Shown: in pieces, positions 1 through 32,944 of the stretch
Position numbering within the stretch: the stretch's first letter is position 1
Layout: each line of letters starts with the position of its first letter
NCBI GenBank assembly: GCA_900315595.1
Contig: OMZQ01000007.1
Location: forward strand, 62,001-126,000
Source of the DNA: an uncultured Eubacteriales bacterium
GTDB lineage: Bacteria > Bacillota > Clostridia > Oscillospirales > Oscillospiraceae
Direction: 5' to 3'
Length of the DNA: 64,000 nt
The notes under the pieces: generated by a model
What the model was told of the DNA's origin: nothing
Database searches by the model: none
The model's input: only the letters and a program-made list of their open reading frames with translations
Made by a program: the position numbers and the translations under genes

Positions 1-383
1 TCGTCCAGACGGGAGGCGTTCTCCGGCAGGTAGGCCCGGCAGGCCTTGATGACCTCGGGATCCATCTCCACGAGGTCGATGCGTTTGATCGTGTCGTACC
101 GCGCAAGCTCCTTGACCACGCCGCCGTCGCCGGCGCCGATCACCAGAACGTCGGTGATGTTCGGGTGGACGGCCATCGGCACGTGCGTGATCATCTCGTC
201 GTAGATGAATTCGTCGCGCTCGGTGAGCTGGACGTTGCCGTCCAGGGCCAGGACGCGGCCAAACTCCGGCGTCTCAAAAATGTCGATGCGCTGGTAGTCG
301 CTCTGGAGCGAGAAAAGCTGCTTGTTGACCCGGATCGAATGCTTTACGTCCGGCGCGTGAAATTCGGAAAACCAGAGTTCCAT
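1..383 (-). CDS. speE: Spermidine synthase, N-terminal part (cut by window edge)
   Basis: Polyamine aminopropyltransferase: moves the aminopropyl group of decarboxylated S-adenosylmethionine to putrescine in the cytoplasm. About 127 residues are visible. The start M-E-L-W-F-S-E-F-H, the D-G-N-V-Q-L-T-E-R-D-E-F substrate strand and the V-I-G-A-G-D-G-G nucleotide loop followed by V-E-M-D-P-E are the family hallmarks. The start at 383 has an AAGGAGG box overlapping the speA stop, and only 12 bp separate the two genes, so they are one operon and probably translationally coupled. The C-terminus lies beyond base 1. Confidence 0.93.
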   Translation of the reverse strand, partial: MELWFSEFHAPDVKHSIRVNKQLFSLQSDYQRIDIFETPEFGRVLALDGNVQLTERDEFIYDEMITHVPMAVHPNITDVLVIGAGDGGVVKELARYDTIKRIDLVEMDPEVIKACRAYLPENASRLD

Positions 384-395
384 GGGGAGACCTCC

Positions 396-1871
396 TTAAG
401 CCAGCACGTTCAGCCGCAAAATGTCCGGGTCCTCCGGGCCGGTCATGGAGCAGCCTTTTTCCTTGGCGAACTCGATATAGTCCAGAATGTCGCGGGTGAT
501 GCGCTCGCCGGGGGCAAGGATGGGGATGCCGGGGGGATAGCACATCACGAACTCAGAGCAGACCATACCCTCGCTCTGGTCGATGGGGACGGATTTTTTC
601 GGGGCGTAGAAGGCCTCCTGCGGGCTGTAGACGACCTCGGGATCGAGATATTCCGTGTCCAGCAGGCCGGAGCCGTCGCGCTGATAGCGGCGGCGGATCT
701 CCGCCAGGGCGGAGACCAGACGCTCCAGCTCCTGGGGCCGGTCTCCGATGGAGAGGTAGGCCAGAATGTTGCCGATGTCGCCGAATTCGATCTGAATGTC
801 GTACTCGTCGCGCAGAATATCGTAGACCTCGATCCCCGCCAGACCGATGTCGCGGGTGTGGATGGAAAGCTTGGTCGGGTCGAAGTCGAAGACGGAGTCG
901 CCGTTGACCAGCTCCTTGCCGAAGGCGTAGTAGCCGCCGATGGCGTTGACCTCCTCGCGGGCGTAGTCCGCCATGGTGCTGACCTTGGCAAAGACCTCGC
1001 GGCCCCGCAGGGCCAGGTTGCGGCGGGAGATGTCCAGAGACGACATCAGCAGATAGGAGCTGGAGGTCGTCTGGGTCAGGTTGATGATCTGGCGGACGTG
1101 GCCCTGGTTCATGTTCGGCCCGATCAGCAGGAAGCTCGACTGCGTCAGACTGCCGCCGGACTTGTGCATGGACACGGCGGCCATGTCGGCCCCTGCGTCC
1201 ATCGCGGAGATCGGCATGCCTGCGCCGAAGTAGAAGTGGGTTCCGTGGGCCTCGTCGGCCAGACAGAACATCCCCGCGTCGTGGGCCATCTTCGTGATGG
1301 CCTTCAGATCGGAGCAGACGCCGTAGTAGGTGGGGTTGTTCACCAGGACGGCCACCGCCTCCGGATGCTCGCGGATGGCCCGCTCCACCTGCTCGCGCCG
1401 CATGCCCAGGGAGATGCCGAGCCGGTCGTCCACCTCGGGGTTGACGTAGACCGGCACCGCGCCGCAGAGGACCAGGGCGTTGATGACCGAGCGGTGGACG
1501 TTGCGGGGCAGGATGATCTTATCGCCGCGCTTGCAGGTGGCAAGCACCATCGTCTGCACGGAAGAGGTCGTGCCGCCGACCATCAAAAAGGCGTGGGCCG
1601 CGCCGAAGGCGTCGGCAGCCAGGTCCTCGGCGTCACGGATCACGGAGACCGGGTGGCAGAGGTTGTCCAGCGGCTTCATGGAGTTGACGTCGATCGAGAC
1701 GCATTTTTCTCCGAGGAAGGCGGCCATCTCCGGATTGCCCCGGCCGCGCTTGTGCCCGGGGACGTCAAAGGGGACGACGCGCATGTTGCGGAACCGTTCC
1801 AGAGCCTCATAGATTGGCGCTCTGGTCTGGTCGAGATCGTAGTAAGAGTTGATCAAGGCTTGCACCTCCAT
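396..1871 (-). CDS. speA: Arginine (Orn/Lys/Arg family) decarboxylase
   Basis: PLP-dependent aminotransferase-fold decarboxylase of the Bacillus SpeA type (491 residues, usual about 490). It probably converts arginine to agmatine, the entry step to putrescine and spermidine; lysine or ornithine cannot be excluded from sequence. The N-terminal P-G-H-K-R-G-R-G motif, the L-A-D-E-A-H-G-T-H cofactor loop around residues 204-212 and the Schiff-base lysine in S-M-H-K-S-G-G (Lys237) are all intact. It heads the speA-speE operon. The mRNA leader contains a closed multi-stem structure followed directly by an intrinsic terminator, so expression is probably set by attenuation (see 1888-2017). Confidence 0.93.
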   Translation of the reverse strand: MEVQALINSYYDLDQTRAPIYEALERFRNMRVVPFDVPGHKRGRGNPEMAAFLGEKCVSIDVNSMKPLDNLCHPVSVIRDAEDLAADAFGAAHAFLMVGGTTSSVQTMVLATCKRGDKIILPRNVHRSVINALVLCGAVPVYVNPEVDDRLGISLGMRREQVERAIREHPEAVAVLVNNPTYYGVCSDLKAITKMAHDAGMFCLADEAHGTHFYFGAGMPISAMDAGADMAAVSMHKSGGSLTQSSFLLIGPNMNQGHVRQIINLTQTTSSSYLLMSSLDISRRNLALRGREVFAKVSTMADYAREEVNAIGGYYAFGKELVNGDSVFDFDPTKLSIHTRDIGLAGIEVYDILRDEYDIQIEFGDIGNILAYLSIGDRPQELERLVSALAEIRRRYQRDGSGLLDTEYLDPEVVYSPQEAFYAPKKSVPIDQSEGMVCSEFVMCYPPGIPILAPGERITRDILDYIEFAKEKGCSMTGPEDPDILRLNVLA

Positions 1872-1887
1872 AGCTTTCCGGATCGGA

Positions 1888-1918
1888 AAACAAAAATCAC
1901 AGGCGCGCAGCCTGTGAT
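1888..1918 (-). terminator. Attenuator hairpin in the speA leader
   Basis: The minus strand reads ATCACAGGC, a 5-nt loop, GCCTGTGAT, then TTTTGTTTT. A perfect 9-bp stem followed by a U-run about 20-50 nt before the speA start codon indicates premature termination control rather than the end of an upstream gene, because no gene precedes it on this strand. Confidence 0.65.
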
Positions 1919-2017
1919 GCGGGTCAATACACCTTTTCCGTCCGGGGAAAGGCGGAGCCTCCGCCGGCGATATCAGAGCCTATACAGCAACGAATACTTT
2001 TACTGCTCTTATTGACC
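1888..2017 (-). promoter_or_regulatory. Structured leader of speA, riboswitch-like
   Basis: Read on the minus strand, GGTCAATA (2017-2010) pairs exactly with TATTGACC (1929-1922) to close a multi-stem domain. Inside it are AGAGC (2009-2005) pairing with GCTCT (1979-1975), a hairpin CAGTAA/TTGCTG within that arm, and the 7-bp hairpin GGCGGAG-G-CTCCGCC (1965-1951). An intrinsic terminator follows at once and then the speA start. This closed-domain plus expression-platform layout is typical of riboswitches and attenuators. I could not match it to a known class (no S-box, L-box, T-box, ykkC or GEMM landmarks), so ligand and mechanism are unknown. Confidence 0.5.
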
Positions 2018-2274
2018 GTTTCACAAGTCTGCGCATGCCGCGCATTTCGGTTATAAAGGAACCAACTTATAAAATGCTCGCGCGCAGGCGCGATCAATAA
2101 GGCGGCAAGCCGCCGATCGGCAGCGGACCCGGCTGTCCGTATGGCCTCGGCTCCCGGGGGAGCGGTCCTGTATAAATCGCCGGAAAGAGATCCTTCGACA
2201 CTTTCCGTCTATACTATACAAAAAACAGGGCGGGAAGTCAAGAAAAAAACAAGGAAAATACGCGGCAGACAGCA

Positions 2275-2332
2275 GCGCCCCTACGAGGTGCTGCATCGGC
2301 GGGCGCGTGGATACGCGCCCCTACGAGGCTGG
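2275..2332 (+). repeat. REP palindromes, one half and one full copy
   Basis: The full copy holds the palindrome GGGCGCGTGGATACGCGCCC (2301-2320) followed by CTACGAGGCTGG. A partial copy, GCGCCCCTACGAGG, precedes it at 2275. The same element occurs on both sides of the RAYT gene near 32 kb, so this is a dispersed REP copy in the speA-pgi intergenic region. Apart from the speA leader and the pgi promoter, I see no gene in 1872-2451. Confidence 0.8.
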
Positions 2333-2378
2333 CGGTCGTCGGCGGCGAAAAAATCTCGTTTTTTTGTGAAATTGCCCA

Positions 2379-2407
2379 TTGTTTTCCGGCGGCAAATCGG
2401 TTATGAT
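2379..2407 (+). promoter_or_regulatory. SigA-type promoter of pgi
   Basis: TTGTTT (2379-2384), a 17-bp spacer and TATGAT (2402-2407), 45 bp before the pgi start. Spacing is ideal and the -10 is one base from consensus. Confidence 0.6.
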
Positions 2408-2451
2408 AGAAATGAAGAAGAATACCCGGCAAAAAACTGTGAGGTGTCATT

Positions 2452-3750
2452 ATGCTGAATGTAGATATTTCCAATATCTGGGGGGAATATACCCTCAATG
2501 ATCTGCTTTCTCTGGAAAAGGAGACCTTCGACGCGCACAAGCTGCTCCTGGATGGCAAGGGTCCCGGCAGCGACTATCTGGGCTGGATGAAGCTCCCGGT
2601 CTTCGAGGAGACCGAGGAGATGATCCGCATCCGGGCGGCTGCCAAGCGGATCCGCGAATCGTCCGACGTCTTCGTCGTCGTCGGCATCGGCGGCAGCTAT
2701 CTGGGCCCGCGCGCGGCGATCGAGCTGGTCATGGGCTCCAACCACAACCTTCGCGGCAAGGACCCGCAGATCTTCTTTGCGGGCAACAATCTGTCCACCC
2801 GCGCCTGGAATGAGCTCTGCGCCCTGTTGGAGGGGAAGGATTTCTCCGTCAACATCATCTCCAAATCCGGCACCACCACCGAGCCCGCAATCGCAACCCG
2901 CGCCCTCAAGTGGATGCTCGAGCGCAAATACGGCGCCGACGAGGCCAAGAAGCGCATCTTCGTGACCACCGACCCCGAAAAGGGCGCGCTGCGCCAGATG
3001 GCTGCGGAGGAGGGCTATGAGACCTTCGTCATCCCGCCCGACGTCGGCGGACGCTACTCCGTCCTGACCGCCGTCGGCCTGCTGCCGATGGCAGTGGCCG
3101 GCATGGACATCACCGAGGTCATGTTCGGCGCGGCCTCGGCCCGCCGCGACATGGAGGCCTTCTCCTTTGAGAATCCCGCCTGGCTCTACGCCGCCGCCCG
3201 CAACCTGCTCTACCGCCACGGCAAGAAGACCGAGCTCTTCTGCTCCTACGAGCCCGATTTCCGCTTTATGGGCGGCTGGCTGCAGCAGCTCTTCGGCGAG
3301 TCCGAGGGCAAGGACGGCAAGGGCATCTACCCCTTCCCGCTGGAATTCACTGCCGACCTGCATTCGATGGGTCAGATGATCCAGCAGGGCGAGCGGACGA
3401 TCTTCGAGACCGTGCTCCGCTTCGCGCCACCGCGCAAGAAAACCATGATCGAGAGCGACTGGAAAAACCTGGACGGGCTCAACTATCTTGAGGGCAAGAG
3501 CCTCGACTTCGTGGAGGAGCAGGCCTTCCAGGGCACCCTCGCGGCCCACACCGACGGCGGCGTGCCGGTCATCCTGGTCCAGAACGACGAGATCTGCGAC
3601 CGCACCCTCGGCGAGATGTTCTATTTCTTCGAGCTGAGCTGCGGCATCTCCGCATACATGCTGGGGGTCAACCCCTTCAACCAGCCCGGCGTCGAGTTCT
3701 ACAAGCGGAACATGTTCCAGCTCCTCGGCAAGCCCGGCTATACCAAGTAA
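2452..3750 (+). CDS. pgi: Glucose-6-phosphate isomerase
   Basis: Glycolytic/gluconeogenic interconversion of glucose-6-phosphate and fructose-6-phosphate in the cytoplasm. The protein has 432 residues, the short bacterial form. Visible signatures are G-I-G-G-S-Y-L-G-P-R, the phosphate-binding S-K-S-G-T-T-T-E-P, D-V-G-G-R-Y-S-V-L-T-A-V-G-L-L-P and the C-terminal N-Q-P-G-V-E region. The start has GAGGTG 7 bp upstream and its own promoter at 2379. The next gene follows after 39 bp and may be co-transcribed up to the terminator at 4213. Confidence 0.96.
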   Translation: MLNVDISNIWGEYTLNDLLSLEKETFDAHKLLLDGKGPGSDYLGWMKLPVFEETEEMIRIRAAAKRIRESSDVFVVVGIGGSYLGPRAAIELVMGSNHNLRGKDPQIFFAGNNLSTRAWNELCALLEGKDFSVNIISKSGTTTEPAIATRALKWMLERKYGADEAKKRIFVTTDPEKGALRQMAAEEGYETFVIPPDVGGRYSVLTAVGLLPMAVAGMDITEVMFGAASARRDMEAFSFENPAWLYAAARNLLYRHGKKTELFCSYEPDFRFMGGWLQQLFGESEGKDGKGIYPFPLEFTADLHSMGQMIQQGERTIFETVLRFAPPRKKTMIESDWKNLDGLNYLEGKSLDFVEEQAFQGTLAAHTDGGVPVILVQNDEICDRTLGEMFYFFELSCGISAYMLGVNPFNQPGVEFYKRNMFQLLGKPGYTK

Positions 3751-32013: not shown

Positions 32014-32299
32014 CCTCGTAGGGGCGCGTATCTACGCGCCCGCACGGATCGACAACAGAGCCCCGCCGAAAAAACCGAAAACGGTCATTCTCTGCCGTAG
32101 GGACAAGCATTGCTTGTCCGGCAATTGGGACAAATGCAGTTTGCCGGAGTTAAATGACGTTACGGGATCGCATCATTCACACGGGGTTCCATCGCCCATT
32201 TGGGCGATTTGTTCCGCTTCGCGGAACCGGGCGCGTGGATACGCGCCCCTACGTATGCCGACGCAGCGCCTTGTAGGGGCGCGTATCTACGCGCCCGCC
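32014..32299. repeat. Cluster of REP palindromes and other short hairpins
   Basis: This stretch, part of the 31945-32343 gap, has no gene. It holds three REP copies: reversed at 32014-32043, forward at 32229-32253, reversed at 32270-32299. The core is GGGCGCGT-x-GATACGCGCCC followed by CTACG. Between them are three other palindromes: GGACAAGCA-T-TGCTTGTCC (32101-32119), ATCGCCCA-TT-TGGGCGAT (32191-32208) and GTTCCGC-TTC-GCGGAAC (32211-32227). The cluster lies directly 3' of the RAYT gene. Confidence 0.85.
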
Positions 32300-32343
32300 A
32301 AACAACCGCCAACATATCATCACAGCACACAGCGTTCAAGCAT

Positions 32344-32811
32344 TCATACGTAGTAACAATCGTCTGCCCATTTTATGGGGTTGTCGTCGATATACTTCCA
32401 GATTCGACGGTAGTCTCTCTCGTCGCGGATCACATGGTCATAAAAGCTCTTCTGCCAGGTCAAGTCCGTTGTGTTTCTGGTAACAAGCGCCTTCCATGCG
32501 CGCATAATAGAAGAAATGGTAACTCTCTTATATTTGTGCGTCAGTTGAATGATTGCATGGACATGATTCGGCATCACCACATATTTGTCCAACCGGACAT
32601 TCGGGTAATGCGCAGGAATTTCCAGAAGGAAACGTTCGACGATCTTCCCATACTCCGTGAGAGGAAGATGCTCCGGATCGACATTGGCAGAGACGTCATT
32701 CCAGAAGAGCTTTGACTTGTCCCCAATGCAGACCGTAACAAAATAATACCCTGGTGCGCCGTAATCGTAGTTATCCAGTCGGTTTTTCTTACGGGTCGGC
32801 AACTGGTTCAC
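32344..32811 (-). CDS. REP-associated tyrosine transposase (RAYT)
   Basis: A single-strand HUH transposase of the IS200-related TnpA-REP type, about 155 residues. The HUH motif is P-N-H-V-H-A-I in the Y-V-V-M-P-N-H-V-H context. The catalytic Tyr is expected in the S-F-Y-D-H-V-I-R-D-E helix, and the family end W-K-Y-I-D-D-N-P-I-K-W is complete. I place the start at the GTG 32811, which follows AAAGGGAG at good spacing. The frame stays open further upstream only because it reads through a REP repeat. REP palindromes flank it on both sides, which is the usual association. It appears intact. Confidence 0.9.
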   Translation of the reverse strand: MNQLPTRKKNRLDNYDYGAPGYYFVTVCIGDKSKLFWNDVSANVDPEHLPLTEYGKIVERFLLEIPAHYPNVRLDKYVVMPNHVHAIIQLTHKYKRVTISSIMRAWKALVTRNTTDLTWQKSFYDHVIRDERDYRRIWKYIDDNPIKWADDCYYV

Positions 32812-32865
32812 GGTGATCGCTCCCTTTGAATAGAGAATGCAGAAAGTTGAATTTGGCGGGAGGTC

Positions 32866-32944
32866 GTCGGCGGGCGCATGGGTATGCGCCCCTACGAGGC
32901 TGGCAATCGTCGGCGAGCGCATGGGTATGCGTCCCTACAGGGGG
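32866..32944 (+). repeat. Two REP copies upstream of the RAYT gene
   Basis: Two forward copies, GTCGGCGGGCGCATGGGTAT continuing into GCGCCCCTACGAGG (32866-32903), and a diverged one beginning GTCGGCGAGCGCATGGGTAT (32909-32944). They differ from the downstream copies mainly in the hairpin tip (CATGGGTATG instead of CGTGGATACG), so at least two subtypes exist. Confidence 0.85.

Follow-up and report, generated by a model that had tools for sequence, protein, structure and literature searches.

A conserved leader RNA upstream of polyamine genes in Bacillota, catalogued in part as RF02440, is a candidate polyamine riboswitch

The validated spermidine riboswitch is a variant of the SAM-I class (Salvail et al., 2023, PMC10853860); it is rare, is found before polyamine genes including ldcC and speE, switches them off through an intrinsic terminator, and more polyamine classes are expected by its authors. 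The potE motif, confined to Veillonella and environmental samples, and the odc1 motif, an alpha-proteobacterial hairpin with a pseudoknot, are candidate RNA elements that also precede polyamine-related genes (Brewer et al., 2021, PMC8632094). F59, an 82-nt sRNA isolated from pneumococcus, is encoded between SP0915 and SP0916, upstream of and co-directional with SP0916, and no family was assigned to it (PMC3395615); the Rfam family RF02440 (SpF59_sRNA / ldcC RNA) now bears its name.

The window analyzed here comprises 64,000 nt of contig OMZQ01000007.1 from an uncultured Eubacteriales bacterium, and all positions refer to it. A preliminary description had placed a riboswitch-like leader at 1888-2017, directly before a polyamine operon, and the leader indeed adjoins an Orn/Lys/Arg decarboxylase gene followed by speE (Table 1). 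This 130-nt stretch folds to -49.1 kcal/mol (z = -2.75; 1 of 200 dinucleotide shuffles was equally stable), and the internal hairpins and the intrinsic terminator with a U-run that had been read from it are present. It holds the 3' part of the leader; the conserved RNA spans 2183-1964 of the minus strand (~220 nt in the window, ~200-240 nt in relatives), mostly upstream of that stretch, and the part matched by RF02440 lies entirely outside it. The transcript probably starts near 2206, about 190 nt upstream of the stretch first described.

Table 1. Features of the leader RNA, its promoter and the adjoining operon in the window.
Feature	Positions	Strand	Evidence or remark
Sigma-70-like promoter TTGACT-17-TATAGT	2213-2241	-	Pattern scan, 10/12 matches
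Closing helix P1a, 5' strand CCGGCGAT	2176-2183	-	8 pairs with 1971-1964
Inner closing helix P1b, 5' strand	2170-2180	-	Pairs with 1997-1987
RF02440 (SpF59_sRNA / ldcC RNA) match	2117-2168	-	cmscan, 64.9 bits, cut-off 37.2, model positions 1-54; includes invariant AGGCCAUACGGACAGCCGGGUC
P2 (within RF02440 match)	2168-2164/2129-2125	-	
P2a hairpin (within RF02440 match)	2163-2159/2154-2150	-	
P3 hairpin GGCGG/CCGCC	2101-2114	-	Hairpin here in relatives, median z -4.6
P4, 5' strand TTATTGATC	2092-2100	-	Pairs with 2017-2009; RNAalifold without input; 97.4% of cells paired
P5 hairpin TCGCGCCTGCGCGCGA	2078-2093	-	Double changes in 4/4 counted pairs in relatives
P6, 5' strand TTATAAGT	2065-2072	-	Pairs with 2028-2021; RNAalifold; 98.1% of cells paired
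P7 hairpin GGTT/AACC	2049-2063	-	Helix counting and hairpin in relatives
P8 hairpin TGCGC/GCGCA	2030-2044	-	Hairpin in relatives, median z -2.7
Switch strand 1 ACTTGTGA	2021-2028	-	P6 3' strand; CTTGTGA alternatively pairs with 1917-1911
Switch strand 2 GGTCAATAA	2009-2017	-	P4 3' strand; GGTCAATA (2017-2010) alternatively pairs with 1929-1922
P9 hairpin AGAGC/GCTCT (2009-2005/1979-1975)	1975-2009	-	98.4% of cells paired; 1 pair with double changes
Closing helix P1a, 3' strand ATCGCCGG	1964-1971	-	Pairs with 2183-2176
Antiterminator 3' strand, part 1 TATTGACC	1922-1929	-	Partner of GGTCAATA
Antiterminator 3' strand, part 2 TCACAGG	1911-1917	-	Inside the terminator's 5' arm
Intrinsic terminator and U-tract	1891-1918	-	Hairpin 1918-1896, ATCACAGGC-tgcgc-GCCTGTGAT-TTTTTG
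Orn/Lys/Arg decarboxylase	396-1871	-	PF01276, E 2.6e-70; arginine decarboxylase by operon context
speE, spermidine synthase	1-383	-	Extends past the window; the next genes are speB, carboxynorspermidine synthase and nspC

The Rfam scan proposed in the preliminary description returned RF02440 as the sole family at E<=1 in the window leader, above its curated cut-off and over the whole 54-nt model, at the 5' end of the conserved RNA; in 12 relatives likewise RF02440 and nothing else was found. The preliminary description had been unable to match the leader to a riboswitch class; the family found here is an sRNA family without an assigned ligand and does not place the RNA in such a class. Matches to the SAM-I family were absent from the window at E<=1 and from the 12 relatives at gathering cut-offs. 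The validated spermidine riboswitch, in contrast, closely resembles the four-stem aptamer of SAM-I (PMC10853860), and identity of the two RNAs was therefore rejected; potE and odc1 are set apart by their published descriptions. In the literature, this RNA was found described only in the report of the pneumococcal sRNA, although a cis-regulatory description may have been published; term searches of papers on genome-wide bacterial RNA discovery found no mention of it. One likely source for such a description is a list of 224 RNA motifs from 2017, and the Rfam phrase 'ldcC RNA' shows that the family has already been tied to ldcC by someone. We regard the RNA as a candidate for a new riboswitch class; part of it is already catalogued.

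RF02440 is present in 34 of 148 related genomes, and a scan of named genomes using its core added at least 117 further loci; all counts of relatives' loci given here draw on the matches listed. The 21-nt core is near-invariant in the scanned loci by construction, and the rest of the RNA was free of this selection. A second core (CTTGTGAAACGGTCAATAAGAG), which no Rfam family covers, was found 3' of the RF02440 core in 145 of 147 core-bearing loci among the matches listed, mostly about 120 nt downstream (2 of the 145 matches are spurious by position, and 2 further loci are cut by a contig end). Since this 3' core accompanies RF02440 in relatives and no other Rfam family matches, RF02440 is the 5' quarter of a larger RNA, and the matched stretch forms the beginning of a conserved leader that extends beyond it rather than a short independent sRNA. 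RF02440 models 54 nt as an sRNA; the conserved RNA has about four times that length, is a 5' leader and adds the closing helices, P4-P9 and the terminator/antiterminator.

The upstream regions of relatives were collected and a covariance model of the whole RNA was built, as the preliminary description had suggested, and the helices proved conserved and covarying. This model (R1, 200 positions) scored 179.1 bits over 200 positions against the window, found the RNA in 37 of 150 genomes within the family, and phylum-wide detected it in 26 of 398 genomes, in comparison to 18 for RF02440; the search within the order of genome G218 covered four genomes. Genomes carrying the RNA held a single copy throughout. 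Seven of the eight matches found by R1 only precede speA or speD, several of them without a detectable RF02440 domain; the eighth (L189, E 9.5e-4) is weak, is not followed by a polyamine gene and was taken as a chance match. Truncated or diverged versions also occur before speD or speA (L186, L187 around 1501-1710, L185, L188, L182); in these the RF02440 5' domain is missing, but CTTGTGAA..GGTCAATAAGAGTAGTAAAAGTA..TTTGCTATATAGACTCT or close variants are retained. They may represent the smallest functional core, and L186 and L187 have a 5' GCAAATATTT able to pair with AAATATTTGC. One copy before a decarboxylase gene (L040, 4376-4696) has apparently lost its 3' half from the P6 3' strand onward and is possibly a decayed leader.

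For 83 sequences, RNAalifold recovered P2, P4, P5 and P6 unaided. When seven helices were counted over the same sequences, 96.6% of the cells were paired and 14 pairs (141 cells) were changed on both sides, versus shuffle means of 5.6 pairs and 40 cells (reached in 0 of 500 shuffles); sliding the helix partners lowered pairing to 27-51%. The relatives are not independent, and the shuffle z-scores are rough. Covariation stems mostly from the outer pair of P2, the hairpin P2a and P5, and it is thin in P4, P6 and P9, which are nearly invariant with few double changes. Both segments of the long closing helix co-vary with their partners: P1a, between the 5' leader and the 3' tail, is kept in 120 relatives whose letters differ widely (median z -2.1; in 83% it outscores pairing with partners taken from dissimilar loci), and P1b in 96 relatives (median z -2.46; 91% better than dissimilar-locus partners). 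P1a and P1b may alternate in the window, because they share bases there. At the 3' end, GACTCT has two possible partners: the AGAGT that directly follows P4, giving P9, and, in many relatives, an AGAGTC of the 5' leader, giving the outer closing helix. This may amount to a second strand exchange. The 5' leader thus carries a conserved, covarying structure, as is expected for a riboswitch.

The segment CTTGTGA...GGTCAATA has two mutually exclusive sets of partners, upstream in P6 and P4 or downstream in TATTGACC...TCACAGG, the latter disrupting the terminator. The preliminary description had taken the 8-bp helix of GGTCAATA and TATTGACC (2017-2010/1929-1922, minus strand, 80 nt apart) for the closing helix; its pairs are all present (8 of 8 Watson-Crick), but it is one half of the antiterminator, and the aptamer-like domain lies mostly upstream. 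It was rejected as P1 of the aptamer since GGTCAATAA serves as the conserved strand of P4 and TATTGACC is part of the expression platform. Folding of the growing window transcript gave P4 a probability of 0.96 until 1921, 0.55 at 1911 and 0.00 at 1904, and the antiterminator a probability of 0.77-1.00 from 1904 on; once the antiterminator strand has emerged, P4 drops to 0.02 and the antiterminator attains 0.85-0.97; P9 forms in the antiterminator state and its probability rises together with it. In equilibrium folding of the full window leader the terminator reached a probability of only 0.03. The predicted energies were -128.9 kcal/mol for the antiterminator state versus -124.6 kcal/mol for the state with P4, P6 and terminator, a gap that a ligand could close.

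In relatives, a simple scan found the terminator in 98 of 143 cases. Over 94 loci, the duplex of the switch strand with the region of the terminator's 5' arm had a median z of -1.8 (47% at p<=0.05), versus +0.74 for the terminator 3'-arm control, a moderate complementarity; TTGAC stands just before the terminator in 15 of 97 relatives, compared to 2.5 expected. Because equilibrium folding predicted the loss of P4 upon emergence of the terminator arm in only 15 of 71 loci, the mechanism in relatives may be more kinetic, or the folding parameters may be inadequate. With a switch strand that hardly varies, covariation alone does not suffice to prove the antiterminator, and a swap of the CTTGTA and CTTGTG variants does not discriminate as G-U pairing tolerates both. 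Aptamer, antiterminator and terminator helices exclude one another in the way riboswitches require, more weakly so in many relatives.

The genes downstream of the RNA were identified by clustering and by Pfam and NCBIfam scans of representatives. Of 141 readable loci among the matches listed, 137 precede genes of one pathway, polyamine synthesis or uptake, which belong to four unrelated types: SAM decarboxylase (52), Orn/Lys/Arg decarboxylase (44), the importer gene potA (21) and carboxynorspermidine synthase (20), the last in Bacillaceae, Paenibacillaceae and one member of the Sporolactobacillaceae. One of the four remaining loci (L091) has a P-II nitrogen regulator gene followed by potA after the RNA (1554-1952 and 408-1532), an arrangement that may link nitrogen status to polyamine import; in L019 an M28-peptidase-like gene (1764-3053) directly follows the RNA in place of a polyamine gene. 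Carriers of the RNA include Oscillospiraceae, Lachnospiraceae, Christensenellaceae, Negativicutes, Bacillaceae, Paenibacillaceae and others. The RNA had no match on viral contigs that would indicate phage origin, and one match lies on a Paenibacillus replicon listed as a plasmid.

The window operon reads speA-speE-speB-CASDH-nspC, with the genes for agmatinase, carboxynorspermidine synthase and carboxynorspermidine decarboxylase on the contig beyond the window. Because these three share the operon, the decarboxylase is best read as an arginine decarboxylase, and the operon as making spermidine from arginine, judging from the gene content. A GGAGG at 1869-1865 overlaps the ATG called as the decarboxylase start (window 1854-1871), and the TTG at 1856 behind this Shine-Dalgarno-like sequence is the likelier start. 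A repeat element, GTAGGGGCG, occurs in six copies on both strands (window 2284, 2324, 32017-32895), two of which lie between a divergent sugar-isomerase-like gene (2452-3750) and the polyamine promoter.

The reading of the leader as riboswitch-like is well supported by the covarying structure, the mutually exclusive helices and the gene association, and we consider it probable that it acts as a transcriptional OFF riboswitch for a polyamine, with spermidine as the first and putrescine as the second candidate. The aptamer-like RNA, closed by the long helix between its 5' and 3' ends, would hold ACTTGTGA in P6 and GGTCAATAA in P4; with these strands held, the terminator (1918-1896) would form and the polyamine operon would be off. 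If the domain is not stabilized, the same strands would pair with TATTGACC...TCACAGG, remove the 5' arm of the terminator and let transcription go on. Stabilization by a polyamine would thereby provide end-product feedback, and ligand-dependent changes would be expected at GGCCAUACGGACAGCC and AGCAGUAAAAGUA.

The speD/speE and CASDH/nspC genes represent alternative routes from putrescine to spermidine, and CASDH/nspC uses no SAM. Since both routes yield spermidine, this would be the common end product or imported compound of the four gene sets. The RNA also stands before speD, potABCD and CASDH/nspC, the last independent of SAM, and this makes arginine, agmatine, SAM, decarboxylated SAM and MTA poor candidates for a shared signal; among the ligands first proposed, a polyamine fits best, and arginine, agmatine and SAM derivatives fit poorly.

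Among the other explanations, the conserved RNA could bind a polyamine-responsive regulator protein that favors or blocks the antiterminator. The same leader architecture would serve this purpose, a large RNA with invariant loops could bind a protein, and the P-II gene of L091 lies directly downstream of the RNA; nevertheless, we judge such protein-mediated attenuation unlikely, as no one regulator gene was found to accompany the RNA and the downstream genes are of four unrelated types. Moreover, a multi-helix domain with long invariant stretches is more characteristic of metabolite aptamers. A riboswitch of the same build for agmatine, arginine or SAM/MTA, or one sensing cations in general, appears slightly less likely still: the first gene of the window operon encodes a decarboxylase, the substrate or product of which could serve as the signal, and polyamines bind RNA unspecifically (PMC10853860), but the speD, potABCD and CASDH/nspC contexts have neither arginine, agmatine nor SAM in common. 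That the RNA acts in trans as a small RNA, with its leader position being incidental, would agree with the Rfam name and with the isolation of F59 as a pneumococcal sRNA (PMC3395615); it is very improbable given that a terminated leader would resemble an sRNA, that F59 is co-directional with SP0916 and that nearly all copies lie directly before polyamine genes, usually with a terminator in between. Ribosome-mediated attenuation through a uORF, for which an ATG ORF crossing the 3' core in the window might speak, was rejected as the least credible since no frame is conserved (no such ORF in 96 of 142 loci, differing frames in the rest, and loop lengths that vary freely modulo 3).

Returning to the polyamine riboswitch, we give about even chances to the broader proposal that the RNA constitutes a widespread, undescribed riboswitch class of the Bacillota (~220 nt, single-copy in the genomes searched) with a fold unrelated to that of SAM-I, which would sense spermidine directly and control both spermidine pathways as well as polyamine import. 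Public databases list only the first quarter of the RNA, as a pneumococcal small RNA with no role assigned, and its distribution is far wider than that of the SAM-I-variant spermidine riboswitch. The full-length model R1 makes a test direct. If a polyamine is bound, gut Clostridia and soil bacilli would have in it a main control of polyamine synthesis at the RNA level, and the pneumococcal sRNA F59 would be accounted for.
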